Virus record (IMG/VR): IMGVR_UViG_3300009149_002794
Span: 1 to 23,246 of that record
Source of the DNA: a virus
Length of the DNA stretch: 23,246 bases
Direction: 5' to 3' (one strand)
Each line of letters opens with the position of its first letter. The stretch's first letter is position 1. The notes below the pieces were generated by a model that worked only from the letters and a program-made list of their open reading frames with translations, was not told the DNA's origin and did not search any database. This document shows positions 1 to 21,240 of this stretch, piece by piece. Both the position numbers and the translations under genes were made by a program.

Positions 1-3000
1 AGACGAAAGGTTGCCGCCGAGAAGTTCTACAAAACATTCTTAGAGAACATCGACCCGAAGATCAAAGCGGACATAGAGGACCAGATGAACAGGAGAATCA
101 ACGGATATGTTCGTCAAGACTACAAAAAAGTACCTCTTGTTGTTGATGGGCTTGATGCTACCTTCGGAGGTAGGGGGCTTAGAATGCCAGACTACAAACT
201 GGATTCAATCGGGTTTCTTTCAAACAAGGGGCTAGGTATCAACGCAAACGGAGTAGGACTAGGCAAAACCATGATGGCTATTATATCGACCGTGCAAGAT
301 GTTCAGCAGGGCCGATACAAGAGACCTTTATTTATCGTACCGAGACAGGTCTATCAGAAATGGATTGATGAGATTATCCAACTATTCCCCGGACAAAAGG
401 TAGTAGGGTTCGGAAACTTAGGCACTAAATACAATGTGGAACGGTCCGAGGATATTTCGGACGCTATTAAGGACGGTGATATTACCGTAATGACCCATGA
501 GGCCATTATGAAGATGGGCTTTAAAGAGGAAACGGTAGATAGATTAAGTTTAAATTTGATGAATGCTTATGATGAATCAGCCGTCCAATACAAAACCGAA
601 AGAGCAAAAGAACTTGATACCGCCAAACGAGCAGAAATGATTGGTAAAGGAAGAGCTAGGGCTGGTATAAAAATAGAGGATTTAGGCTTTGATAATATAA
701 TCGTGGACGAGGCCCACAACTTCAAAAACATCTTTTCAAGGGCTAAGTCTCAGGAAGGAGAGAAGAAATTCAGGGGAAGATGGGGCGGGTTACAGGGGCC
801 AAGCTCATCGAGGGGGGTAAAATTGTGGTTCATGTCACAGTATATTCAGAAATTGAACGGCGGCCGAGGTGTAAAAATGCTCACCGCTACACCGTTTTCT
901 AACAATCCATTGGAGTATTACAACATGCTTTCCTTAATGGCCATGGACGAAATGAAAGCCATGGGCATTGATAACATCAATACCTTCATGGACACCTTCG
1001 TAAAGTCCAAGCACACCTTTGTCGTGAAGGCGGGCGGGAAGTTTGAAATGGGAGAAGTTATCGAGGACTGGCAGAACGGGGAACTCCTGAAAGACTTTAT
1101 CGGACGCTATATTGATTTTAAGGACGGAGAGGACTACGGAGTCGAAAGACCCACTAAACACATCAGAGACCACCGCCTGAATCCCACAGCCGAGCAATTA
1201 CAACTCATCGACGAGGCCCAAGAACTCCTTGAACCGAAATTCAAAGACCAGGGGGGAACACTGGTATACATCGACGAAGCCAAAAAGATTACCCTCAGTC
1301 CTTCACTGAGTCGCTACTACAAAGGACCGGCCATGAATGCCAAGCAGTTTATCGAGACTTCACTGAAACTGATGGCCATGATGAACATGATTAAGGGGAA
1401 CAAAAGAAAGACCGGCCAGCTAATCTACTACCCTTTGGCCGTGGACACAATGCCACTTGTGAAGGATTACCTGATTACCGAGCTAGGCTATAAGCCTTCT
1501 GAGGTTGGAATCGTCTCAGGGGCCACAACAGACGCACAGAGAGAGAAAATTAAGACTGGATTCAATGACGGCTCTATTAAGGTGATTATCGGGTCCGACG
1601 CTGTAAAGGAAGGAATCGACCTACAAGAAAAAGCTACGGATCTTTTCATCACTTCTTACCCATGGAGACCTACTGATATTACTCAGGTAGAGGGAAGAAT
1701 CCACCGACAGGGGAATGAATACCCGAATGTGCGCGTCCACTTCTTATCCGCAAATGACACCATCGATCCTTTCCTTTTCCAGAAAATGGAAACTAAGGCC
1801 CGTAGGCTTGCAAACGCTAGCGCACTGGACCAAGTAATGGACGTAAGCGATATTGATTGGGAGGCGGCCAAAGCTGACCTCATCAGAGATCCAAGGGCAA
1901 GACTTGAGGTACAGAAGGCCCAAAAGAAACAGAACATTGACCTTGAATTGGCGGCTGCCACGGCTGAAAAAGCCATGATTAACGACACCATAAACAAAGA
2001 GAAGAATCTTGTGGAAGAGATTGAATACACTAAAGGGAATATGAAGGATTATCGGGAGGGTCATAATATGCACGATTATTACAAAAAGAAGTTGAAGAAA
2101 GCCGAGCAGAAACTCAAAGACTTTCAGAAGAGAGAAATCGACCTGGACGAATTGGCGGCCCGCGCGGAAGAATTGACGATTGTGGAAAAGGTAAAGTCCG
2201 AAGAAGCCAAAGTTATCGACGCTGAATTTGCGGAGAAGGCCAAGGGGTTACAGGAATACAGACAGATTGAACCGGCACAGAATGACTACACTGTTTTCGA
2301 GAACCAGATTATCGAAGAGAACAAGACCTTTATGCAGAAGAAAGAGAAAAAAACAGTAACCGAAACGGAGAGTAAGGAGATCACACCACAGGAAATGCAA
2401 AAGAGACTCGACAAAGTAAAGGCCGATAAGGAGATAGCGCAGGAAGTCAAAGAGGATATTCAGAAAGTTGAGGAAGAAAAGGCCATCGAGCAGGAAGTAG
2501 AAAAGATGAGAGAGGAAGAAAGCTACTCCGAAATCATCGACCGAATCAAGAAAAACAAAATGCCGGTCGAGGAAGCCAGCGAAACACTGGACTTGTTACA
2601 GGCAATCAAAGCACCTGAGAATATAATAAAACAGGTCGAGGAATACAAGACAGGGCTTGAAAAGGCCATGGTCAAAGATATTGAAAACGAACTCAAAGCC
2701 GTCGAGAATGACTTAGAGGAAATCGAAAAGGCCGCCGTGGAAGGGAAGCTGTCAGGCAAAGAAGTATCAAATCTTATTTCGAACATTTTAAAAAAGAACC
2801 GATTCGCTTTCACGCGTAAGGGAACAACGCTTGAGGACTGGATTGACGCGAACATGTCAGCAAAGGATTGGCCAAGCTTTGTCAAAAACTTCCTTAATCT
2901 TTACAAGGAGGCTATCGAAAAAGGGAACAAATGGCCAGTACGGCCAGAAGTTCAGGACTTTATGAACAAGCTGGAAAGTGGTATAATGGACGATGTACAA

Positions 3001-6000
3001 ATGGAAGAGGTCACTAAATACCTACCAGAACATCTTAAACAACCACTCAATGCAAGAAAAAAGTCCACACCAACAGGAACTAAGACAGTTCAGCCAAGCC
3101 GCGGCCGCACTGAGCCAGATGTCGGAAGAGGAACAGAACTCAGTGATGGAGCAGATAAAGCAGTCAGTGAAAGAGTCTTAGAAGATGTAGAAGCCAGTAC
3201 CAGTGATGATTACGGTCCCGGCCACCCATGGTACTACAAAACTCATGAGCCACCAAAAGCTGATGATATTCTTCCGTTTGGAGACCATTCAACATTCTTA
3301 CCAGCAAAATCAAAATATGCTTCTGAACTTGCGCGATATAAAGAAGAGCTTAAAAAGGATATTGAAACATACAATGATATTGTTGAGCGAGGCGCCGACG
3401 CGCTTAGTGATTATGATAAGAATATTGCACATGGTGGCGATGTAGAGGGGGCTGTGAACATGGCGCTATCTTTGAAGACTTCGCATATATCAAACGATAA
3501 AGGAGTTATCAATATGCTGAGTGAAAAGCTCGGTAAAAAGAAACCATACAAGGAAGATGGAATAAAAACCAAAATAAAAGAAGTCCAGAAGCTTAAAACT
3601 GAGAACGTAGAATTAGACGGTAAACCAGTTGAGGTTGTTGCCACACCACAACTTGATACGAAGGGGTATCGTGACAAAGTTTTGAATGTTCTTGTAGAAC
3701 ATGAGAACGGAATGGACCAGATCGTTGATTCAAAAGATGTTGAGGTAGTTCCTCATTCGGACGAGATAATTGAGCCACCAAGCAAACCACCAGAGCCACC
3801 GGCGCCAAAGGAAAGAAAGGAAAAACCCGAAAGACCCAAACCTCAGAAGATAGACCTTGGTAAGCTAGACCGTGTTCGTGTCGTTATTCAGGACCGCATG
3901 TTACCGGCCGAGAGGTTACAAAAGAAAGCTGGGGCGGTTACAGAGGAAGAGGACATCTATCTTGCCGAGGAACTGTACAGCGGAAGAGTTACCGATGCCA
4001 TCGAGACATTCCAAAAAGAGAAGGAAGACCCGATTCGCAAGAAGATTGACCTACTGACTAAAGGGGAGAATCAAGCCCTATTGAAAGGTTTAATACAAGA
4101 CTACTTACATCTGAAACATGCGCCAGAAAGGAATAAAGCTCACTATGATGGAGCGGCGGGAATAAAGACGAAAGAAGCCAAAGAGAGGATTCAGCTAATA
4201 GAAGCACACCCAAGGTTCCAAGATATAAAACTAGGAGCCAGCTTAATACAAGAACTGGCAAGTTCGCTTCCTCAATTTTTACAGCAAAACGAGTTAATAA
4301 CCGATGAAACCTTCGAGGTTTTGAGTAATACATACAAAGAATATGTTCCTTTAAACAGGATAATGGACGACGAAACGGACTTTGTAAATACCTTGGGAAT
4401 CGGGAAAGGGTTTGATATTCGAGGTAATGAAGTTCAAAGGGCCGTCGGTAGTCGTCGTCAGATTGACGATATTTTCGCCAATGTGGTCTCAAATTGGGAG
4501 CGAGCTATAATGAGAGCCGAGAAGAACAAAGTGGGTCAGAGCGTGTACAGTTTCACAATGAAGTACCCGGAATTGGGAGTTTTCGAAATCATGCCGGCAA
4601 TCCCCGTACACCTCATGGACAAAGACGGAGGGGATTATTGGGTAAGGCAAGCACCAAAGGCTGATAATATCCTCAGTGTTAAACTGGAAGGGAAATCGAA
4701 ATACATTAAGATCAACGACCCGAACCTTGCGGCGGCGCTCAAGAACCTTAATGTAGACAACTCAAATCTGCTTATCAAAATTCTCGCACCGTTCACAAGG
4801 TACATATCAATGATAAATACCTCGCTGAATCCTGAGTTCATTATCAGCAACTTTTTAAGAGACATACAGCAATCGACCCTGAACAATGTAAATGACATGG
4901 GTCTTAATAAAGCCGTGAAGACCTCAACAAGAGTATTTAGCGCTCAGAAGGGAATAATGGACTTTTACCGAGGGAAAGATACGGAAATGTCACTACTGTA
5001 CAAGGAGCTGAAAGCTCAAGGCGGTACAACCGGATTCTTTAACATCAGGAACAAGGAGGACATCGACGCTCTACTAAGGACAGCAGAGAAGGTATGGTCA
5101 GACGGCGCAATCGGTATGCCTATGAAGATGGGTAAGAAAGTAGCCGACGCTATATCCGTGATGAATGACATCATTGAGAACGGCACAAGGCTTGCCACCT
5201 ATCAGGCGGCACTTGAAATGGGCAAGAGTAAGGCTCGCGCGGCACAGATGGCAAAAAATATTACAGTCAACTTCAACAAGAAAGGACAATTAGGGCCCAC
5301 AATCAATGCGCTGTATGCTTTCTCAAATGCTTCCATTCAGGGGTCTTTCAGAGCTTTCAAGGCATTAAAGAACCCAAAGACGGCAATACCGATTATTACT
5401 ACCATTGTTACTTTGTCGCTTGCGCTGAGTGTGTGGAATGACTGGTACGACGAAGAGGACTACGCGCGTATCCCCGAACATGAGAAGGAAGGCAACTGGA
5501 TATTCATGTACGGCGACGGAGACTACGTTAAAATTCCCCTGCCATGGGGATTCAATGTGTTCAAAGTCGCCGCTGATTACAGTTACTCAATGGCTAAAGG
5601 AGACACATCAGGTAAATACGGAATAGGACGCACAGCAGTAGCCCTAATTAACGCTTACAATCCTATTGGGGGGTCTTCTGTTGGTCAGGCACTTACACCG
5701 ACCATGTTGCGCCCAGGCTTCGATATAGCCACCAATACATCGTGGGCAGGGTACAACATCGCACCAGACAACTACACCAACATAAAAGAATCCCTGAATT
5801 ACTTTGAAAGCACCAATGATTTATTCAAATCGGCCGCCGTTATGATGAGCAAGGCCACAGGTGGAGAAGGCGCCAAGCCTGGCATGATTGAAATATCACC
5901 AGAGGACCTTGAGTATATTTGGGCGCAATACACAGGTGGTATTGGCACTTTCCTTTCACGAACTCAAAACTACCTTGGGAATATGTTCACAGGAGAAGAG

Positions 6001-6861
6001 ACTCCGATAAACGAAACTCCTTTCAAGCGTAGGGTTATGGGAGAGGTAAACCTAGAAAAGTTCAACCGCAGTCAGATGTATGACTATCTGGACCGCTCCA
6101 AAGAAGAGATACTGGCCCCCGAAGAGCGACCAAAGCTTTTGGCCGTCGTGAAAGATGAACTCAGCGCTGGACGATTGGATAAGAAAGAAGCCATCAGTAA
6201 GATGAAAGAGTACGACCGATGGCAGGAGGACTTGCAACTGGTGGACGAAAAGGCCAAATACATCAAAGAGAAAGGTCTCACTGGTGAAAAGCTCGGAAGG
6301 TTCTATGAGGCCCTGCAAGACAAGGATTTTATGAAGTCAAGAGGACAGGACACTTTCAACAAGACTCAGATCAAGATTCTAAAATCCTACACAGGAAATG
6401 CACCGGCCAGCGCGGACGCTAAAAAAAAAGCAACTGAGGCCACTACCGAAAAAGGACTGATAAGCGCCGTATTGCAGTACGCTAAGGCTTTCAGTATTGA
6501 CGCTGATTCGGCCTTCGTGACCCTATTCACAGGCGAAAAGCTCAAAGATGTACGCGGAGACTCCGTTATCATGGAGCGCATGAGCTTCGAGAAGTCCACC
6601 GAGGTCAAAAAGAAACTAGCCGATGGTATGGTACTGGACGCTATCAAACTGGACTACACGGTCCCGCTCGAATTGGGCGGCAGTAACTCAGAGGGCAATC
6701 TGAAAGTAGTCACCACTGAGGAATGGGCCAGCTACACACCAGTAGAAAACTACCTGGGCGACAAGCTGAACTCAGGCGACATCGACGAGAAGGAAGCACA
6801 ACGGCTTATTAAAGCATTTAAAGACGGTGAAATAACCGCAGAAGAGATATATAACCAATAA
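1..6861 (+). CDS. Giant polyvalent phage protein: SNF2-type helicase plus LPD38-like region (5' partial)
   Basis: The frame is open from the first base, so the protein begins upstream; 2286 residues are visible and the first ATG (85) is probably internal. Superfamily 2 SNF2-type helicase motifs are seen: motif I GVGLGKT (about 253-273), motif II VDEAHN (703-720), motif III LTATPFSNN (880-906) and motifs V/VI ending EGRIHRQGN (1690-1716). Long charged coiled coils follow (about 1900-2760), then a proline-rich linker (about 3770-3845). The next part resembles the large polyvalent protein-associated region LPD38, with a NTSLNPEFIISNFLRD core (about 4816-4863) and one hydrophobic segment (about 5383-5436). 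The tail reads DYTVPLELGGSN, an HNH-like motif with Tyr where His is usual. By analogy with polyvalent proteins of phages and conjugative elements, it may be carried in the virion, enter with DNA and act on host or phage DNA; that role is inferred. The next gene starts 4 bases downstream. Confidence 0.85.
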   Translation, partial: RRKVAAEKFYKTFLENIDPKIKADIEDQMNRRINGYVRQDYKKVPLVVDGLDATFGGRGLRMPDYKLDSIGFLSNKGLGINANGVGLGKTMMAIISTVQDVQQGRYKRPLFIVPRQVYQKWIDEIIQLFPGQKVVGFGNLGTKYNVERSEDISDAIKDGDITVMTHEAIMKMGFKEETVDRLSLNLMNAYDESAVQYKTERAKELDTAKRAEMIGKGRARAGIKIEDLGFDNIIVDEAHNFKNIFSRAKSQEGEKKFRGRWGGLQGPSSSRGVKLWFMSQYIQKLNGGRGVKMLTATPFSNNPLEYYNMLSLMAMDEMKAMGIDNINTFMDTFVKSKHTFVVKAGGKFEMGEVIEDWQNGELLKDFIGRYIDFKDGEDYGVERPTKHIRDHRLNPTAEQLQLIDEAQELLEPKFKDQGGTLVYIDEAKKITLSPSLSRYYKGPAMNAKQFIETSLKLMAMMNMIKGNKRKTGQLIYYPLAVDTMPLVKDYLITELGYKPSEVGIVSGATTDAQREKIKTGFNDGSIKVIIGSDAVKEGIDLQEKATDLFITSYPWRPTDITQVEGRIHRQGNEYPNVRVHFLSANDTIDPFLFQKMETKARRLANASALDQVMDVSDIDWEAAKADLIRDPRARLEVQKAQKKQNIDLELAAATAEKAMINDTINKEKNLVEEIEYTKGNMKDYREGHNMHDYYKKKLKKAEQKLKDFQKREIDLDELAARAEELTIVEKVKSEEAKVIDAEFAEKAKGLQEYRQIEPAQNDYTVFENQIIEENKTFMQKKEKKTVTETESKEITPQEMQKRLDKVKADKEIAQEVKEDIQKVEEEKAIEQEVEKMREEESYSEIIDRIKKNKMPVEEASETLDLLQAIKAPENIIKQVEEYKTGLEKAMVKDIENELKAVENDLEEIEKAAVEGKLSGKEVSNLISNILKKNRFAFTRKGTTLEDWIDANMSAKDWPSFVKNFLNLYKEAIEKGNKWPVRPEVQDFMNKLESGIMDDVQMEEVTKYLPEHLKQPLNARKKSTPTGTKTVQPSRGRTEPDVGRGTELSDGADKAVSERVLEDVEASTSDDYGPGHPWYYKTHEPPKADDILPFGDHSTFLPAKSKYASELARYKEELKKDIETYNDIVERGADALSDYDKNIAHGGDVEGAVNMALSLKTSHISNDKGVINMLSEKLGKKKPYKEDGIKTKIKEVQKLKTENVELDGKPVEVVATPQLDTKGYRDKVLNVLVEHENGMDQIVDSKDVEVVPHSDEIIEPPSKPPEPPAPKERKEKPERPKPQKIDLGKLDRVRVVIQDRMLPAERLQKKAGAVTEEEDIYLAEELYSGRVTDAIETFQKEKEDPIRKKIDLLTKGENQALLKGLIQDYLHLKHAPERNKAHYDGAAGIKTKEAKERIQLIEAHPRFQDIKLGASLIQELASSLPQFLQQNELITDETFEVLSNTYKEYVPLNRIMDDETDFVNTLGIGKGFDIRGNEVQRAVGSRRQIDDIFANVVSNWERAIMRAEKNKVGQSVYSFTMKYPELGVFEIMPAIPVHLMDKDGGDYWVRQAPKADNILSVKLEGKSKYIKINDPNLAAALKNLNVDNSNLLIKILAPFTRYISMINTSLNPEFIISNFLRDIQQSTLNNVNDMGLNKAVKTSTRVFSAQKGIMDFYRGKDTEMSLLYKELKAQGGTTGFFNIRNKEDIDALLRTAEKVWSDGAIGMPMKMGKKVADAISVMNDIIENGTRLATYQAALEMGKSKARAAQMAKNITVNFNKKGQLGPTINALYAFSNASIQGSFRAFKALKNPKTAIPIITTIVTLSLALSVWNDWYDEEDYARIPEHEKEGNWIFMYGDGDYVKIPLPWGFNVFKVAADYSYSMAKGDTSGKYGIGRTAVALINAYNPIGGSSVGQALTPTMLRPGFDIATNTSWAGYNIAPDNYTNIKESLNYFESTNDLFKSAAVMMSKATGGEGAKPGMIEISPEDLEYIWAQYTGGIGTFLSRTQNYLGNMFTGEETPINETPFKRRVMGEVNLEKFNRSQMYDYLDRSKEEILAPEERPKLLAVVKDELSAGRLDKKEAISKMKEYDRWQEDLQLVDEKAKYIKEKGLTGEKLGRFYEALQDKDFMKSRGQDTFNKTQIKILKSYTGNAPASADAKKKATEATTEKGLISAVLQYAKAFSIDADSAFVTLFTGEKLKDVRGDSVIMERMSFEKSTEVKKKLADGMVLDAIKLDYTVPLELGGSNSEGNLKVVTTEEWASYTPVENYLGDKLNSGDIDEKEAQRLIKAFKDGEITAEEIYNQ

Positions 6862-7447: not shown

Positions 7448-7678
7448 ATGCCAGTAAACACGAAGACGAAGTTTTACAACTTCATGGAGGTAAACAATCT
7501 CCGAACTATTGATATTCGTAATGCGACAATGGGTACCGGTGAAACCATCGGCTACCAAACCATTCAGGATTTCCGCCATGGTTACGGTTCTTTACCGACA
7601 GTGACCACACTTAAAAAGATTGCTAAAGCAGTCTCTTCACTGATTGGCCGTGAGGTCGAGCTTGGAGAATTAGTCTAG
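7448..7678 (+). CDS. Small Cro/C1-type helix-turn-helix regulator
   Basis: 76 residues. The second half fits an XRE (Cro/C1) helix-turn-helix: a TIGYQTIQDFRHG recognition region, then LPTVTTLKKIAKAVSSLIG and the closing VELGELV, which matches the family's last helix. There is no oligomerisation or cleavage domain, so it is Cro-sized rather than LexA/CI-like. It has its own consensus promoter and is followed by about 450 non-coding bases with a 12-base palindrome at 7914-7925 that could be its operator; this link is inference. No Shine-Dalgarno sequence precedes the ATG; the leader is T-rich. Confidence 0.7.
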   Translation: MPVNTKTKFYNFMEVNNLRTIDIRNATMGTGETIGYQTIQDFRHGYGSLPTVTTLKKIAKAVSSLIGREVELGELV

Positions 7679-7689
7679 TAATTAGATTT

Positions 7690-7830
7690 CGGGGTGGTCT
7701 TTTCCCACCTCGGTACCTGATTAACAGGAACACGGCTCACCCGCCAGCGGATAGGTTATAGGGTGAATAAGCCGAGGTCGCAAGACCGGGGATCGTCCGA
7801 AAGCGATAGTCAACGAAAAGACTGTTGTAA
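7690..7830 (+). ncRNA. Structured RNA candidate downstream of the regulator gene
   Basis: No ORF. Several helices can be drawn by eye. They are GGTGG/CCACC (7693-7697 with 7705-7709), CCTG/CAGG (7716-7719 with 7725-7728), and a long arm CGGCT/AGCCG (7733-7737 with 7770-7774) stacked on CACCC/GGGTG (7738-7742 with 7761-7765). Also present are GGTC-GCAA-GACC with a GNRA tetraloop (7776-7787), ATCG/CGAT (7792-7795 with 7804-7807) and AGTC/GACT (7808-7811 with 7820-7823). ACCT (7707-7710) can alternatively pair with AGGT (7775-7778). It should be transcribed from the promoter at 7381. I recognise no known RNA family; it may be a regulatory 3' UTR, a riboswitch-like element or an independent RNA. 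The strand is inferred from that promoter. Confidence 0.5.
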
Positions 7831-8047
7831 GGAATATATTCTGTGCTCATTAACATAAACAAAAAGAACTCCTTCCAAGAAATTCTTCTGAACCAGTTTC
7901 ACTAGTTACTTTCATTGTATACAATTTTCAGAAGAAATCAAGCTTAAACCCAACGGGGACAAAAGCTCCTGTCACCGAAAAGTGACACTTTGAGTGTAGC
8001 TAATGACATTCTTTGTCTTTATTTTCACTTAGAGTATTATTTTCTTC
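7831..8047. other. Non-coding control region with dyads
   Basis: No convincing gene. It holds a 10-base perfect inverted repeat TTCTTCTGAA/TTCAGAAGAA (7883-7892 and 7927-7936). Within the loop is a perfect 12-base palindrome ATTGTATACAAT (7914-7925), which could be a repressor operator. It also holds a hairpin TGTCAC-CGAAAA-GTGACA (7970-7987). A 9-codon ORF at 8003-8032 is too short to support. The T-rich stretch after 8010 lacks a run right behind the hairpin, so I do not call a terminator. Confidence 0.5.
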
Positions 8048-9323: not shown

Positions 9324-11387
9324 ATGAACCAATACTCCGCACTATCAGAGGCCGACAAAAAAGACCTTTTGGACAATTACCTGATTGAACACTTCTCAAT
9401 CAGTGCCATAAATGAGTTCATCAGCAACGAGAAAGCCTTTGAAAAGAAATACATATTTAAAATCTACGACCAGACTTCCGGATTATCTCAGATTATCGGG
9501 AGCGCCTACCATAAAGCACTTGAGGAATACTTCATCAGCTATAAAGAAGAGGGAATACAGACCACCTTCGATGCGCTCGTTATGATTTGCTACGAGTACA
9601 TCGAATCAATCCCGGCCACAAACTGGAGACCACAGGTAAAAAAGACCATCGAGGAACTGAAAGCCGAAGCAATCAAGCGAGTGAACTTCCTTATTAAGAG
9701 CTTTTTGGCCGAGGTAGATACCTATTTGAGTGACATTCAGGAGATTCTATTCGTGGAGAAGTCATTCACTGAGTTCGTAACGCTGGACGGCATCGACCTT
9801 CCTTTGCCTTTCAAGTTCAAAATGGACATCGGTTACATCGACAAAGAAGGGTATTTGTGTGTCTCAGATCACAAGGCCAAGAAGAACTACACCAAAGAAG
9901 AAGATGTAAACATGGATTGCGCGAACCAATCAATCGGGTATGCAGTCGGACTCAAGTCAGTCTTTGAAAGGGAAGAGTACGCAGGGCTGGTAAAGAAGTA
10001 CCCTAAGATTAAGGAAGGGATCAAGCGCTTCAACTATTACGAGAACAAATACAGCAAGAACATGGACGGCTCAAGTCAGATAAAGCGTATTAGTATTGAT
10101 ATTGGAGACTCTTCACAGATGTACGAAGCCATGCTGTTCGACGGAGTATGGCGGGTACTTAGGGCCGTACAGGACCTGGACTATGTTTACCTGATGAATA
10201 AGAACGATTACTTCCAAGACAAAGGCGAAATGGTAGACTTTTGGGTCAAAACAAGAGTCGAAGGCTTAGAAGGTTTCCCACAACTGAACGCTAAACAGAA
10301 GAGAATCATGGGCCGCCGCCGAAAAGACCTCAGAACCTCAAGTATATCCAAAATCCCAAAGGCGGCGATCACCGCATTCAAAGAGCAAACCAAATTTGTA
10401 TCATATAACACAGAAGACATGAGCGCTTTATCAACACAAGAAAGAATAGTCCAACGGCTGAAAACATTCGGGTACATGGTCAATGTAGCCCATGTAGTAC
10501 ACGGCTACTCCTGCGACACTTACTTACTAGAAATCGGGGCCGGTATGCAGTCCAAGAAGATTTACAACTACCGCATGGACATCGCCCAGGCTGTTGGCAA
10601 GGCCGACGTGCGTATCGCTAAAGGGTTACTGACTTACGATAACTTCCCTTATGTAGCCATCGAAGTAAACAACGACCAAGAATCCCGCAGATTTCTTTCT
10701 ATTGATGAAAGCGGTCTTAGCGGTGATTCCTTGCCTATCGGAAGAGACAACTTCGAAAACCCAATATCATGGGCCCCATCTAATCCATCTACTCCGCACA
10801 TGCTAGTCGCTGGTGCGTCGGGGTCCGGGAAGTCTATCGCACTCAAAACAATGATTGAGGCGGCCATAGCCCAAGGGTACGAGGTTACAATCATCGACCC
10901 GAAGAGAGACGAGCATTTCAAAGCCTTCTCAGGAGTCACAATCTACCACGAAATGGAGGATATTGAATTGTTCCTTGAGATAAAGGTCGAGGAAATGGAC
11001 GCAATCTACAAGTCGGGTTCCAAAACCAAGCAGATCATATTCTTCGACGAAGCTTCTGACTGTTTTACAAGGCAGACCGCAAAGAAGAAAGGAGTCGATG
11101 AGTTCAGAACATTACAGCAGAACACTCTTTTACTGGCTCAAAAGGCCCGTTCCGCAGGGATTCATCTTGTACTGGCTTCTCAAAGATTCTCAGTCAAAGT
11201 CCTTTCTGGTGACGCTAAGGCTAACTTTCCAGCCCGCCTATGCCTCACTGTTACCTCTGGTGTCGATTCTAAGGTCATGCTTGATGAGATAGGGGCCGAA
11301 GCATTGAACGGAAAGGGAGACGCGCTTTACAGGACTCCTGAGTTAAGCGAGCCTGTTCGTATTCAGACTTACATGCTGAAAGATTGA
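9324..11387 (+). CDS. Fusion of RecB/Cas4-type nuclease and FtsK-type DNA translocase
   Basis: 687 residues with two parts. Residues about 20-290 are a PD-(D/E)xK nuclease of the RecB/Cas4 type. His63 lies in IIGSAYHKALEEYF, Glu145 in VEKSF, Asp168 in MDIGYID, Asp182 and Lys184 in SDHKAKK, and Gln202 with Tyr206 in QSIGYA. Residues about 375-687 match the FtsK motor. An alpha-domain-like stretch (LLEIGAGMQSKKIYNYRMDIA; PYVAIEVNN) comes first, then Walker A GASGSGKS (497-504), Walker B IIFFDEASD (571-579), LVLASQR (615-621) and the FtsK-like MLDEIGAEALNGKGDALYR. The gamma DNA-reading domain of FtsK is absent; the protein ends after the motor. Known nucleases beside RecT are lambda Exo, RecE or AddB-type; a dsDNA pump fused to the nuclease resembles HerA-NurA in logic. 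It probably resects phage DNA ends for RecT. Confidence 0.85.
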   Translation: MNQYSALSEADKKDLLDNYLIEHFSISAINEFISNEKAFEKKYIFKIYDQTSGLSQIIGSAYHKALEEYFISYKEEGIQTTFDALVMICYEYIESIPATNWRPQVKKTIEELKAEAIKRVNFLIKSFLAEVDTYLSDIQEILFVEKSFTEFVTLDGIDLPLPFKFKMDIGYIDKEGYLCVSDHKAKKNYTKEEDVNMDCANQSIGYAVGLKSVFEREEYAGLVKKYPKIKEGIKRFNYYENKYSKNMDGSSQIKRISIDIGDSSQMYEAMLFDGVWRVLRAVQDLDYVYLMNKNDYFQDKGEMVDFWVKTRVEGLEGFPQLNAKQKRIMGRRRKDLRTSSISKIPKAAITAFKEQTKFVSYNTEDMSALSTQERIVQRLKTFGYMVNVAHVVHGYSCDTYLLEIGAGMQSKKIYNYRMDIAQAVGKADVRIAKGLLTYDNFPYVAIEVNNDQESRRFLSIDESGLSGDSLPIGRDNFENPISWAPSNPSTPHMLVAGASGSGKSIALKTMIEAAIAQGYEVTIIDPKRDEHFKAFSGVTIYHEMEDIELFLEIKVEEMDAIYKSGSKTKQIIFFDEASDCFTRQTAKKKGVDEFRTLQQNTLLLAQKARSAGIHLVLASQRFSVKVLSGDAKANFPARLCLTVTSGVDSKVMLDEIGAEALNGKGDALYRTPELSEPVRIQTYMLKD

Positions 11388-13364: not shown

Positions 13365-13739
13365 ATGAACCAAAACACAAAAATAATAAAAGACCTGGAC
13401 AATCTGGTAAGCCGTATCGTGAAGGCCCGCGACCCTATGTGCAAACTTGGAGTGAATTGTTACTACACTAGCAGGAGCGTTGACCCAGCCCATGTGTTCG
13501 GGAGGACAAACATGGCGACAAGATGGGAGCTTATGGCCGTGTTCGGGGCTTGTCGGGAGTGCCATTCGTACATCGACACACACCCGGACAAGAAGAGGAA
13601 ACTATTCAGACAGCTAATGGGATTCGTTATGTACGACAAATTCGAGGCACTTTCAAATACCAATGTGAAGTATTTACCAAGTGATCTTAAAGAAATCAAA
13701 AAAACCCTCACTCAAGAGCTAAATTATCTTGATTTCTAA
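13365..13739 (+). CDS. ninG: NinG-like HNH/zinc nuclease
   Basis: 124 residues. It has LDNLVSRIVKARDPMC, a first Cys pair Cys26/Cys32, HVFGR with His43, then CRECHSYID with Cys63, Cys66 and His67. This Cys-Cys-His-Cys-Cys-His arrangement matches NinG (Rap)-like phage recombination endonucleases and HNH proteins; lambda NinG acts on branched recombination intermediates. It is shorter than lambda NinG (about 200). ATGAACCAA start, no Shine-Dalgarno sequence. The promoter at 13729 overlaps its 3' end. Confidence 0.72.
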   Translation: MNQNTKIIKDLDNLVSRIVKARDPMCKLGVNCYYTSRSVDPAHVFGRTNMATRWELMAVFGACRECHSYIDTHPDKKRKLFRQLMGFVMYDKFEALSNTNVKYLPSDLKEIKKTLTQELNYLDF

Positions 13740-13757
13740 GCCAAAATCCTGTACAAT
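13729..13757 (+). promoter_or_regulatory. Sigma70-type promoter for the large structured RNA
   Basis: TTGATT at 13729-13734, a 17-base spacer, and TACAAT at 13752-13757. It lies across the stop codon of the NinG-like gene and points into the 500-base non-coding region, with transcription expected near 13764. Its presence argues that the downstream RNA has its own transcript. Confidence 0.7.
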
Positions 13758-13763
13758 TAAACC

Positions 13764-14090
13764 ACAAAAAAGCTATGCCAAATGCCTACACAATCACAGT
13801 TCGGATTAAGTGGATTCTCAGACGGAAGGCTCATTAACAATTCGGGATTATTTAGCGTTCCTTCTGTATGAATCGCGGAAGGTAAAAGCTGATAGGTCAG
13901 AACATCTAAGCCAACGATGTGCCTACGGCTGGCAATATGGCGCCAGCTAGACCCGTGGAAGGCACCGAAGTGTGCAATTTGTAAACCTAGACATTTCGGA
14001 CCACGGAGGGATATAGGGCATTGATGGGTGTTAAGCCGCCATGCGGTCACAAGTCCCATCTTTACTGGAAGCGAGGAATCCAGAAGGAAC
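13764..14090 (+). ncRNA. Large structured non-coding RNA candidate
   Basis: No ORF over 29 codons. Strong helices: CCGTGG/CCACGG (13953-13958 with 14001-14006) encloses the 9-bp helix CCGAAGTGT/ACATTTCGG (13965-13973 with 13991-13999, one G-U). GCTGGC/GCCAGC spans 13928-13947. GATGGG/CCCATC (14023-14028 with 14055-14060) encloses CCGC-CAT-GCGG (14036-14046). ACATC/GATGT is at 13902-13920 and CTGG/CCAG at 14065-14083. CCTTCT (13860-13865) can pair with either of two GGAAGG copies (13824-13829, 13877-13882). I looked for group I and II intron cores, tmRNA and RNase P signatures and found none convincing. Size and closeness to a tRNA-like element recall large phage RNAs such as GOLLD and ROOL, but I see no specific consensus. 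Confidence 0.6.
13782..13871 (+). CDS. Possible 29-residue leader peptide or gene fragment
   Basis: ATG at 13782 to TGA at 13869-13871, 18 bases after the expected start of the RNA. The peptide begins MPTQSQFGLSGFSDGRL and ends SVPSV. The stop falls in the loop of the CCTTCT/GGAAGG hairpin, so translation would disturb that pairing. It could be a leader peptide, the remnant of a longer gene, or chance. A second ATG (13775) in another frame gives only 20 codons. Confidence 0.25.
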   Translation: MPTQSQFGLSGFSDGRLINNSGLFSVPSV

Positions 14091-14107
14091 TTTGAATAAT
14101 CAATTTC

Positions 14108-14226
14108 GTGTTGTGGAGTAAGTGGCGGAATAGGTAGATGCTAGGCTAACTAGTTTGACCGTAGTGGGACAAACATGCAGGGTGACTAAGCAAATTATGT
14201 GAAATCCCTGCCTTACCCCACAACAC
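14108..14226 (+). tRNA. tRNA-Leu-like element, non-canonical (T-loop insertion, extended acceptor stem)
   Basis: The D-arm TGGCGGAATAGGTAGATGC (14123-14141) differs at only two positions from the D-arm of bacterial tRNA-Leu. The T-stem GCAGGG/CCCTGC (14177-14182 with 14206-14211) has AAAT before its 3' strand, as in a normal T-loop, but the loop is 23 instead of 7 bases. The closing stem runs 14108-14122 with 14212-14226: 15 positions with one A-C mismatch, about twice an acceptor stem. An anticodon arm GGCTA-ACTAGTT-TGACC (14144-14160) would give anticodon UAG (Leu) but has a C-A mismatch and C at position 33 instead of U. A competing hairpin GTTTG.CC/GG.CAAAC (14153-14174) exists. No encoded CCA follows. 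It may be a pseudo-tRNA or a tRNA-mimicking end of the larger RNA. Confidence 0.5.
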
Positions 14227-14246
14227 AAAGTCAATAATTCACTCAA

Positions 14247-14696
14247 ATGAAAGTAGTAATACGACAATACCCTGAGTCGGTAATCAGCCGACCAGTCACA
14301 AATGAGGACCTTCCAAGAGTCCTTGAGACCGTACCGATCATGTACGAAGTCCTAAACAGGAAGACCGGCATGTATAAAGACGGCCACGCTTTGGCCCATG
14401 TTCAGGTGGTCGATAAGGACCCCTTGCGGTTTTATGTACTGAAAGACGGCTCTTATGTTATCAATCCCGTGATAGTGCGCCACACCAGGCACACCGTACA
14501 GAAAATGGAAGGTTGCCTTTCGTACTGTACCAAGAGACCAATTCTGATGGACCGCTACCACAAGTGCGATGTGGAGGTCCAGCTAATCAACGACAATGTT
14601 CTAGGCGAGCCAGTCCGATTCACTCTAGCAGGAATTGACGCTCAGATTGTTCAGCACGAAGTAGATCACATGGACGGAAAAACAATTTATTATTAA
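14247..14696 (+). CDS. def: Peptide deformylase, phage type
   Basis: 149 residues. Three diagnostic motifs are present: motif 1 is degenerate (GHALAHVQ, 46-53, with Gln53), motif 2 EGCLS (88-92, Cys90) and motif 3 QHEVDH (136-141). Cys90, His137 and His141 bind the metal and Glu138 is catalytic. The enzyme removes the formyl group from nascent proteins. Phage deformylases lack the C-terminal helix of bacterial ones; this protein ends soon after motif 3 (MDGKTIYY), as they do. It begins just after the tRNA-like element, so two translation-related functions lie side by side. Confidence 0.88.
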   Translation: MKVVIRQYPESVISRPVTNEDLPRVLETVPIMYEVLNRKTGMYKDGHALAHVQVVDKDPLRFYVLKDGSYVINPVIVRHTRHTVQKMEGCLSYCTKRPILMDRYHKCDVEVQLINDNVLGEPVRFTLAGIDAQIVQHEVDHMDGKTIYY

Positions 14697-19189: not shown

Positions 19190-19763
19190 AAATAAAAATT
19201 GGGAGAAGTTCGTTGTAGCCTATGTTTCGAAAGAGACTTATTTAAGCGGACTCTATTCTTATGCAAAGGCTTATGGCTATAAACTGACAAGCAAAAAGGA
19301 AGTTGACGTATGCAAATCTAATGCTTACCGATTGCTTACTTACCCAGCGATTCAAGATAGAATAAAAGAATTGATGGAGAGGACTGGCTTTGATGATGCC
19401 TCAGTGGACCTTGAGCATCTGAAAATGCTGAGACAGGACATAGACTTCAAATCAAAGATGGCGGCCATTAAGGAGTACAATTCACTCAAGAAGCGAACTA
19501 CTCCAAATGCTCCGACAATAAACCAAAACATAATCTCGTATGAACAGCACATTATTAACAACACCTACGGAACAGCAAGAGTGGTCGAGCCACTTCCAAA
19601 AGATGAGAAGGAACTACAACGAGTACAGGAATCTTTACCTGAAGATCAACACGAAGTCATCGGGGCTAATCAAATTCAAGCGCAATCTGGCTCAGGAGAT
19701 ATTCGAGAGTCTAATAGCGGAGCAGGTGAAGCAGAGGAAGCCTATCCGGGCTTTAGTTCTTAA
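19176..19763 (+). CDS. terS: Terminase small subunit
   Basis: 195 residues. Residues about 8-110 match the phage small-terminase pattern: NWEKFVVAYV, LYSYAKAYGY, SNAYRLLTYPAIQDRIKELM, then DFKSKMAAIKEYNSLKKR. This is the DNA-recognition subunit of the packaging motor. The last 70 residues are acidic and low in complexity (SGSGDIRESNSGAGEAEEAY) and lie over the start of the large subunit in another frame. Confidence 0.75.
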   Translation: MPRLKNKNWEKFVVAYVSKETYLSGLYSYAKAYGYKLTSKKEVDVCKSNAYRLLTYPAIQDRIKELMERTGFDDASVDLEHLKMLRQDIDFKSKMAAIKEYNSLKKRTTPNAPTINQNIISYEQHIINNTYGTARVVEPLPKDEKELQRVQESLPEDQHEVIGANQIQAQSGSGDIRESNSGAGEAEEAYPGFSS

Positions 19764-21240
19764 AGGGAGACAGGAGGGTATCACAACCGATGTAGCGGGG
19801 CTTATCTTTCACAACACCTCATCTAACTGCGGTCGAAAGAGTGTCGTGGTCTCGCATGAGCCCGACTCAACCAAGAGTATCTTCGAAATCTACAAGACTT
19901 ACTACGATAATCTGGACCCGATGGTCCAGCCAATGAAGCGTTACGACAATAAGAACACGCTTACTTTTGCCAATCCGAGCAACGATGAAGAGGAAAAACG
20001 GCTAAATCCCGGACTTGGAAGCTCTATATCTGTCTTTACAGCCAATAAAAGCGGAGGTGGTAGGTCACAGACCATTCATAACTTTCACGGCTCGGAAGTT
20101 GCTTTTTGGCCTACGGAAGCCAAAAGATTAATGCTTAATATTTTACAGTCAGTGCCAGATCGTCTGAATACTATGGTCATTTTGGAGAGTACAGCCAATG
20201 GTACATCGGGGTATTTCCACGACGAATATCAGAAAGCCAAGAAAGGACTCAGTGATTATTTGGCAATCTTTATTCCTTGGTGGGTCCATGAAGAGTATCA
20301 GAGACCAAGACCCGAAGACATGAAGCTGGACGAGTACGAGCAGAACCTTTTGGACAAGATGTTAGCCTGGCGATTCAAAGACTACCGAATCACTCACGAG
20401 CAGGCTCTAATGAAGCTCCAATGGAGGCGCTGGGCTATCCGTAACAAGTGCCACGGCTCCGAGAAACAGTTCATGCAGGAGTACCCAGCCACCGACAAAG
20501 AAGCCTTTCAAAAGAAAACAGGGCTTGTTTATTACGCTTATGACCATGATGTTCACTTCATTGAGCATTATGAACCAAGAATTGAGGACCATATCTTTTT
20601 CGGAGGGTACGACTTTGGAGCCGAGCACCCATGGGCCTATGGACTATTTGCCATCGATCGCTACGGCACCATATACAAATTCAGGGAGATCAAGCTCCAA
20701 GGTTCAACCGCTCAGGAAATGGGAGACCTTATCGCCAAGGCTGAGACCCACCACAACACTGGTCAGAAATTCCCTGTACTCAAAAGGTACAGAGGTCACG
20801 ACTCAGGGGCCAAACAGATAGCTTTAGAATTAAAGCGCCTTAAAAGAAACCCTGTAAAGCTCACCGAGGGGATTGTGAAGCGAGAGCTAGGGATTACTAC
20901 CGTCAATGGGCTATTTCTTGAGAACAAGTATTTCATCTCAAACGAATGCGTGAATACGGACTATGAGCTTCTGAACCATGTTTACAAGAACGAATACACC
21001 CAGAGCGAAGAGTTCAAGGAAATGACAGCCATCGATGGAATACTGAGACTGGAGGGAGAAGAGCATAAGGACGCTGATGTAGTGAAAGAGTTGGACGATT
21101 GCGTAGATGGAGACCGATACGGCATTACTTCAATCATGCACCGCAAACCAAAAGAGAAGCAAACAACAATCGAGCAAGTCCGAAGAATGGCAGAGAAAAG
21201 CTATCAGAAAGAAAAGAAAGGTATTGGTGTGAACTGGTAA
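19540..21240 (+). CDS. terL: Terminase large subunit
   Basis: 566 residues. The ATPase starts with LKGRQEGITT (74-83), a variant Walker A, as in terminases reading KARQLGxST. Then comes HGSEVAFWP and the Walker B-side TMVILESTANG. The nuclease half has GGYDFGAEHPW, RGHDSGAKQ and DDCVDGDRYG, giving Asp residues for the RNase H-like site. It drives headful or cos cutting and DNA translocation into the prohead. ATG at 19540 gives a 224-base overlap with terS in the +1 frame; an ATG at 19603 would shorten it to 161. Even the conserved region (YLKINTKSSGLIKF) begins well inside terS. Confidence 0.9.
   Translation: MNSTLLTTPTEQQEWSSHFQKMRRNYNEYRNLYLKINTKSSGLIKFKRNLAQEIFESLIAEQVKQRKPIRALVLKGRQEGITTDVAGLIFHNTSSNCGRKSVVVSHEPDSTKSIFEIYKTYYDNLDPMVQPMKRYDNKNTLTFANPSNDEEEKRLNPGLGSSISVFTANKSGGGRSQTIHNFHGSEVAFWPTEAKRLMLNILQSVPDRLNTMVILESTANGTSGYFHDEYQKAKKGLSDYLAIFIPWWVHEEYQRPRPEDMKLDEYEQNLLDKMLAWRFKDYRITHEQALMKLQWRRWAIRNKCHGSEKQFMQEYPATDKEAFQKKTGLVYYAYDHDVHFIEHYEPRIEDHIFFGGYDFGAEHPWAYGLFAIDRYGTIYKFREIKLQGSTAQEMGDLIAKAETHHNTGQKFPVLKRYRGHDSGAKQIALELKRLKRNPVKLTEGIVKRELGITTVNGLFLENKYFISNECVNTDYELLNHVYKNEYTQSEEFKEMTAIDGILRLEGEEHKDADVVKELDDCVDGDRYGITSIMHRKPKEKQTTIEQVRRMAEKSYQKEKKGIGVNW

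Follow-up and report, generated by a model that had tools for sequence, protein, structure and literature searches.

Transfer-messenger RNA (tmRNA) has a tRNA-like domain that lacks an anticodon. In part this is covered by PMC8394870, which describes YrlA, a bacterial Y RNA (RF02553), as a non-decoding RNA with tRNA-type D, T and acceptor arms, and PMC12286853 presents GOLLD and ROOL as large or ornate phage RNAs that sometimes lie beside tRNAs. The locus described here lies in a virus record of 23,246 bases, analysed as a whole and referred to below as the window, and holds at 14108-14226 a tRNA-shaped RNA without a true anticodon arm. Judged by its sequence and by a covariance model (R1) built from other members with the window left out, this RNA very probably belongs to a family of phage tRNA-like elements (TLE), and the matches listed place such an unannotated tRNA-shaped RNA in some two hundred phage contigs or more. 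A search of the open-access literature, with subscription papers and preprints largely outside its range, found no description of such an element in titles or opening lines of abstracts; the family is apparently undescribed, a new family of a known kind, the non-decoding tRNA-mimic RNA.

Folded units in the gap of the window

As the original prediction had it, the RNA-bearing region separates recombination genes from peptide deformylase, occupying a gap (13740-14246) that has a NinG/Rap-like gene (13365-13739) on its upstream side and the gene for the deformylase (14247-14696) on its downstream side. Upstream of the gap lie genes for RecT, a nuclease/FtsK fusion, a NinB-like protein and a DNA cytosine methylase, and a TerL-like gene at 19540-21240 is encoded on the same strand as the tRNA-like element, which precedes it by 5.3 kb. 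The fusion (687 aa, 9324-11387) joins a PD-(D/E)XK nuclease to an FtsK/HerA-like ATPase, and 8-residue patterns drawn from it gave no relative in viral contigs; a 2258-aa protein (85-6861) joins an SNF2/helicase region to an LPD38 domain. The proposed lack of any ORF above 29 codons stands for the plus strand to the extent that no ORF of at least 50 aa occurs in 13740-14246, but fails on the minus strand, where a mechanical 100-aa ORF (13757-14059) is present; PHROG (up to E 1) and tblastn against the phage collection (up to E 0.01) both returned nothing for it. Sites resembling the supposedly good sigma70 promoter numbered two in the search against 1.8 expected by chance, and this part of the proposal is not confirmed. 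With blastn, the whole region gave only short matches in the phage collection, in three records.

No family of Rfam reached its gathering score in the gap, and none of GOLLD, ROOL, the group I and II introns or tmRNA did so anywhere in the window; a search of the gap at E up to 10 returned one chance-level match (E 6.5), and ARAGORN called neither a tRNA nor a tmRNA in the window. The view that the RNA matches no recognised family thus survives this comparison with the common ones. Dense folding was likewise confirmed, both for 13757-14229 (z -3.3, with 0 of 100 shuffles equally stable) and for 13846-14101 (folded as 13840-14108), where none of 200 shuffles was as stable. The latter ranked second among 116 stretches of 269 nt from the window (115 tiled, plus the stretch of this domain placed by hand). 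The strongest fold among them, at 7601-7869 (z -5.9), lies in a mostly non-coding gap after an ORF ending at 7678 and is a candidate second RNA of this phage; R1 does not match it, and Rfam gave nothing above cut-off, the best being a sub-gathering SAM-II match (24.3 bits) inside the end of the ORF.

The upstream domain is predicted as a single closed, branched fold, the last arm of which (14023-14060) has a split T-arm architecture like that of the tRNA-like element family; beside it, GGTAAA pairs with TTTACT in the manner of an acceptor, followed by a 4-bp hairpin. The exact pattern of this T-arm gave 0 matches, no relative of the domain was found beside other family members, and the domain was in none of the loci reached through the deformylase (4 loci), the terminase (1) or the FtsK/nuclease fusion (0). 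Since no relative was found, we can only guess that 13846-14101 may be a divergent second tRNA-like element. The gap is best read as holding two folded units (Table 1) and not the single RNA of about 460 nt originally proposed: the tRNA-like part has a family of its own, and no relative of the upstream domain was found beside the other members.

Table 1. Coordinates of features in and around the gap (all positions refer to the window).
Feature	Position	Strand	Basis
Weak sigma70-like promoter match, TTGATT-17-TACAAT	13729..13757	+	9/12 match; not above chance
Separate strongly folded domain, possible TLE-A	13846..14101	+	z -5.1; no relative; no match with R1
T-arm-like stem GATGGG-TG[TTAAGCCGCCATGCGGTCA]CAAGT-CCCATC	14023..14060	+	1 match in the window against 0.017 expected per random window
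tRNA-like element TLE-B, whole, with extended closing helix	14108..14226	+	R1 match; fold z -2.3
Closing helix of 15 bp, 5' strand (acceptor 14116-14122 plus 8-bp extension)	14108..14122	+	sequence; R1 alignment
D-arm GCGGAATAGGTAGATGC, tRNA-Leu type	14125..14141	+	sequence; same D-arm in relatives selected by T-arm
Minimal hairpin at anticodon position, TAG-GCTAA-CTA, without usable anticodon loop	14142..14152	+	sequence
Hypervariable 'variable arm' GTTTG...CAAAC	14153..14174	+	fold; part replaced in relatives
T-arm, 6-bp stem GCAGGG/CCCTGC, split T-loop	14177..14211	+	R1 alignment; class II T-arms
Closing helix, 3' strand (acceptor 14212-14218 plus extension), no CCA	14212..14226	+	sequence; R1 alignment

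A family of tRNA-like elements in phages

Viral contigs contain at least 120 stretches that carry the 17-base core of the window's D-arm. Among the 122 matches listed, 109, the window copy included, were not called tRNA by ARAGORN, run without its intron option; a first loose pass found a complementary acceptor and T-stem in 98, and 78 of those 98 had the T-loop TGCAAAT instead of the TTCAAAT of tRNA. We take the D-arm to be of Leu type from what is generally established for tRNA and from the tRNA-Leu calls that ARAGORN made among these matches. A stricter pass on the listed matches left 85 elements (80 unique), here termed class I, which consist of an acceptor, the D-arm, an arm of 8-192 nt at the anticodon/variable-arm position and a 6-bp T-stem, and which carry a T before the T-stem in all 79 cases with an arm of at least 14 nt. 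The T-loop of class II elements is opened between positions 55 and 56, giving TG-ACTATA-CGAG-arm-CTCG-(T or G)-CAAAT; this and the other tRNA positions mentioned (8, 15, 48, 54-56 and 73) follow the usual numbering of tRNA. The 15-base motif of class II has at least 120 matches in viral contigs, 101 of the 122 listed having an acceptor and T-stem, and nearly all of these 101 also have a D-arm of the same kind, which was no part of the query (a few are without a recognisable D-arm). In two elements (L226 and L086) the insert stems differ from CGAG/CTCG.

Searching for class I without the D-arm recovered both acceptor and D-arm in 100 of the 140 distinct matches listed across all loci, against 5 of 140 in a shuffled-acceptor control, and in 38 of 74 from newly fetched loci. 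Altogether, the altered T-loop (TGCAAAT, or TG..CAAAT with an insert) together with the 6-bp T-stem recurs in about 190 elements. Outside viral contigs the exact class II pattern is rare: it led to an element in 10 of 62 loci of cellular genomes, its matches there being mostly chance, and R1 at E 1e-9 with stricter filters found one in 1 of 200 genomes of a single phylum, that one being the search centre itself. Rfam applied to 19 loci, most of them with relatives, returned only tRNA, and single checks at elements matched no family.

Some contigs hold more than one candidate: two loci (L133 and L143) each pair a class I with a class II element, two (L226 and L179) have two element or class I T-arm matches per contig, and another (L356) has two T-arm pattern matches 379 bases apart. 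One locus (L062) combines the class I layout with the normal TTCAAAT T-loop, scores 50 bits with R1 and is perhaps an intermediate form. A73 occurs in 50 of the 80 class I elements and in 37 of the 98 belonging to class II, there is no CCA, and the 3' flank is not conserved; that position 73 and CCA are unfixed argues against aminoacylation or a charged tRNA and lends no support to 3' processing of the tRNA type. Charging by LeuRS was set aside as A73 is fixed in neither class.

For covariation, 32 of the 92 eligible class II elements were aligned (A5), taken from the 42 shortest after 10 had been dropped by hand as near-duplicates, as having atypical T-inserts or as the tail of the list. In these 32 sequences 99.4% of pair cells are standard, a percentage inflated by the use of acceptor and T-stem pairing in selection, and the unvarying CGAG/CTCG stem is partly an effect of selection by the search pattern. 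Changes on both sides were seen at 11 of the 20 pairs, including all 7 of the acceptor, and such cells numbered 131 against 36 in shuffles. Selection criteria explain this spread of pair types across the acceptor much less readily. In the set of 98 unique class II elements, acceptor positions 1-6 each show all four Watson-Crick pairs, and the D-arm covaries as well (TGGCGG..GACGC, TGGTGG..GACAC). Covariation thus demonstrates the fold of the family, and covariation among homologues, the lack of which would have told against the original prediction, was found for relatives of the tRNA-like part. On 40 loci, R1 scored class II elements at 63-97 bits, most class I at 38-62 (one, L022, at 29.5) and ordinary or near-ordinary tRNA-Leu at 31-43, so that weak class I elements and tRNA-Leu overlap.

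The window copy, at 58.3 bits (14116-14218, E 5.7e-15; next match in the window 10 bits), lies above every tRNA-Leu scored with R1, which upholds the tRNA-Leu-like end first noticed and demonstrates the membership of this copy. Its acceptor forms 6 of 7 pairs directly before the TGGYGG D-arm and continues into 8 perfect extension pairs, leaving one A-C mismatch in the 15 bp; the outer helix stops at 14226, exactly where the RNA had been proposed to end. The hairpin at the anticodon position has a 5-nt loop against the 7-nt loop of a functional tRNA-Leu, and similar short hairpins were read by eye in class I elements. All 6 pairs of the T-stem are formed, and the loop opens with TGACTA as in class II, but it has a 3-bp insert stem and GAAAT for CAAAT. 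Read as TG, ACTAA-GCA-AATTA-TGT-G, AAAT, it is of a degenerate class II type with a minimal insert, in which C56 is not kept and G stands in its place; the exact pattern of this T-arm and loop type had 0 matches in viral contigs.

Exchange of arms and genomic placement

Between phages with 88-100% core identity, entire arms have been replaced. The 179 unique elements fall into 164 arm clusters at 75%, identical elements or flanks being counted once here as in the class II tally and the analyses of arm folding, terminators and tRNA proximity; elements spanning more than 420 nt were excluded from arm analyses, which retained 192 of 195 non-TT elements. In nine pairs chosen by hand, for similar flanks and different arms, from 136 flank-similar pairs, flank identity over 150 bases was 0.58-0.99 and core identity 0.88-1.00 (acceptor and D-arm) and 0.96-1.00 (T-arm and acceptor), with arm identity at 0.38-0.58, where random pairs have a mean of 0.45 and a 95th percentile of 0.60. 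In one comparison (L015 with L094) the downstream flanks were 0.99 identical and the cores 1.00, against 0.58 for the arms. Exchange is frequent and not universal, since some of the 136 pairs have arm as well as flank in common. One 60-nt arm is identical in two different acceptor frames (L002 and L063). Of the upstream-only pairs 10 of 33, and of the downstream-only pairs 17 of 25, lose their similarity within 1 nt of the element edge; with 27 of 58 one-sided pairs ending exactly at the element, the core is also a recombination border. Compared with shuffles, arms have slightly more stable folds (mean z -0.99 and -0.98). Their longest antisense match to their own flanks, sought up to about 15 kb for most contigs, averaged 9.34 against 9.24 in the control (166 elements) and shows no excess. 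T-arm motifs within the arms of 179 elements (3 with a TTC-loop, 0.15 expected; 4 with a TG-loop, 0.6 expected) are too few to use; one arm (L097, 2669-2830) seems to hold most of another tRNA, with a D-arm and a TTC T-arm.

The family tends to sit upstream of the large terminase gene, and the window copy, on the same strand as its TerL-like gene, fits. Among the 60 large ORFs lying up to 5 kb downstream (65 elements), iterated profiles identified 16 as TerL relatives; among the 38 upstream (62 elements) they identified 0. With PHROG, 16 downstream members matched the terminase phrog_2, and upstream, among the top 25 families, primases and helicases led and at least two members matched terminase families. 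These scans used alignments of unrelated proteins made solely for joint scanning: A1 and A2 drew on the first 75 entries in lists of 151 and 149 ORFs and, after removals by hand, held 72 and 71, and A3 and A4 held all 60 and 38 ORFs. Large neighbouring ORFs are mostly co-oriented with the element (31 of 38 upstream, 51 of 60 downstream), and many elements fit tightly between ORFs; a terminator follows 22 of 64 class I and 10 of 73 class II elements. The placement near the replication/packaging border is thereby demonstrated.

Known Lactobacillus phages carry the element as well. The element is flanked in Sha1 and H1-Guo by a RinA or DUF1492 gene and the small terminase; phiJL-1 has it at one end of a linear record, Lenus has a tRNA-Arg gene on either side of it, and in LP65 it lies within a tRNA cluster, where the match overlaps an annotated hypothetical ORF. 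In the other records no feature is annotated under the element, zrk29-2 having no annotation at all. The original suggestion of an RNA of the kind found near tRNAs is not supported for the family: an ARAGORN tRNA lies within 1 kb in 15 of 87 cases for class I and in 6 of 95 for class II.

Possible roles and comparison with known RNAs

We tentatively propose, at slightly less than even confidence, that the window RNA is a non-decoding tRNA mimic from a phage-wide family in which the arms choose the partner, a decoy or inhibitor being its likeliest form. It would be a stable RNA made from a phage transcript, retaining the acceptor/T stack, D-arm and elbow of tRNA-Leu but not the anticodon arm, with one or two variable helical arms projecting from the variable-arm site and, in class II, also from the tip of the T-loop. 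A host factor would recognise the conserved core as tRNA, and the arms rather than the core would decide which partner is caught or blocked. The likeliest role may be to act as a decoy for, or to inhibit by competition, an enzyme directed at tRNA, such as a tRNA-cutting defence or an RNA-decay factor; it is favoured because the body is a tRNA without an anticodon to cut and the arms change as in an arms race, and taken alone it is nonetheless doubtful. In an equally doubtful version, a fixed tRNA chassis with fast-exchanged, structured arms at two mounting points would work in trans, as a decoy or inhibitor of changing specificity in the contest between phage and host or phage and phage, the window copy being paired with a giant-armed second version. 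Against the proposed mimic stand the T-loop of the window copy, which departs from the family at C56, the unfixed position 73 and 3' flank, the presence of terminators after some elements only and the tight gaps that many elements occupy; recombination through the conserved core might also produce arm exchange as a side effect. If the version acting in trans is true, the family would be an RNA counterpart of variable anti-defence proteins shared across many phage lineages. A constant core combined with cassette arms usually points to a molecule under diversifying pressure, and RNAs of this sort are seldom encountered; default tRNA finders and Rfam currently miss a whole class of phage RNA, for which the Lactobacillus phages offer a testable object.

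The strongest rival, a little less probable than the decoy role, is a cis-acting element of the transcript at the late-operon border between replication/recombination and packaging, in which the arms would matter little and which might work by RNase P-type cleavage, by read-through or antitermination, or by stabilizing the long late transcript. The bias of TerL relatives to the downstream side with primases and helicases upstream, the shared strand, the tight fit between ORFs, the position in Sha1 and H1-Guo and the terminators after some class I elements are all consistent with it. It leaves unexplained, however, the block replacement of arms beside constant flanks, and it sits poorly with elements in the tRNA clusters of Lenus and LP65, with two elements on one contig and with the distance between the window copy and TerL. 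Next comes an antisense RNA scaffolded on a stable tRNA core, with arms as guides to phage or host transcripts; wholesale swapping around a constant core would suit such guides, but the arms fold on themselves and show no antisense excess towards their own flanks, and we consider this unlikely.

Recombination bears on a further alternative, in which the core would be a shared patch for the joining of modules and the RNA incidental. The stops of similarity at element edges agree with this reading, but it is very improbable, since compensatory changes at every acceptor pair argue that the RNA (or strand) fold itself is selected, and most phages differ in acceptor sequence. Least credible of all is a decaying or interrupted tRNA-Leu gene: the D-arm does equal that of tRNA-Leu genes, but ARAGORN calls no tRNA here, and the recurrence of the altered T-loop and 6-bp T-stem with covarying stems contradicts decay, for which reason the candidate was rejected.

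Among described RNAs, tmRNA differs in that the window has neither an ARAGORN tmRNA nor an Rfam match, and in that the family is of Leu type, not Ala type, with no tag reading frame identified. Equating the locus with a large RNA like GOLLD or ROOL is unsupported, because neither matches in the window or in the 19 loci, the window has no tRNA, the element has its own family and most members lie away from tRNA genes. YrlA, as described in PMC8394870, shares D, T and acceptor arms and the absence of decoding with the family, the T-loop of which, by contrast, has no U55; RF02553 had no match above cut-off in 8 records, the window record included, and none at elements, and no Rsr gene was among the neighbour-gene families listed (PHROG and first Pfam, top 25 families) or named among the window proteins scanned. 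The family shares with tRNA-Leu the 7-bp acceptor, the D-arm TGGCGGAATAGGTAGACGC, the type II layout with a long variable arm and the A15/U48 positions, but unlike tRNA-Leu it lacks an anticodon arm and CCA, has TG for TT at 54-55 and a 6-bp T-stem, and bears arms that measure 8-192 nt in class I and can reach a few hundred nt in class II.
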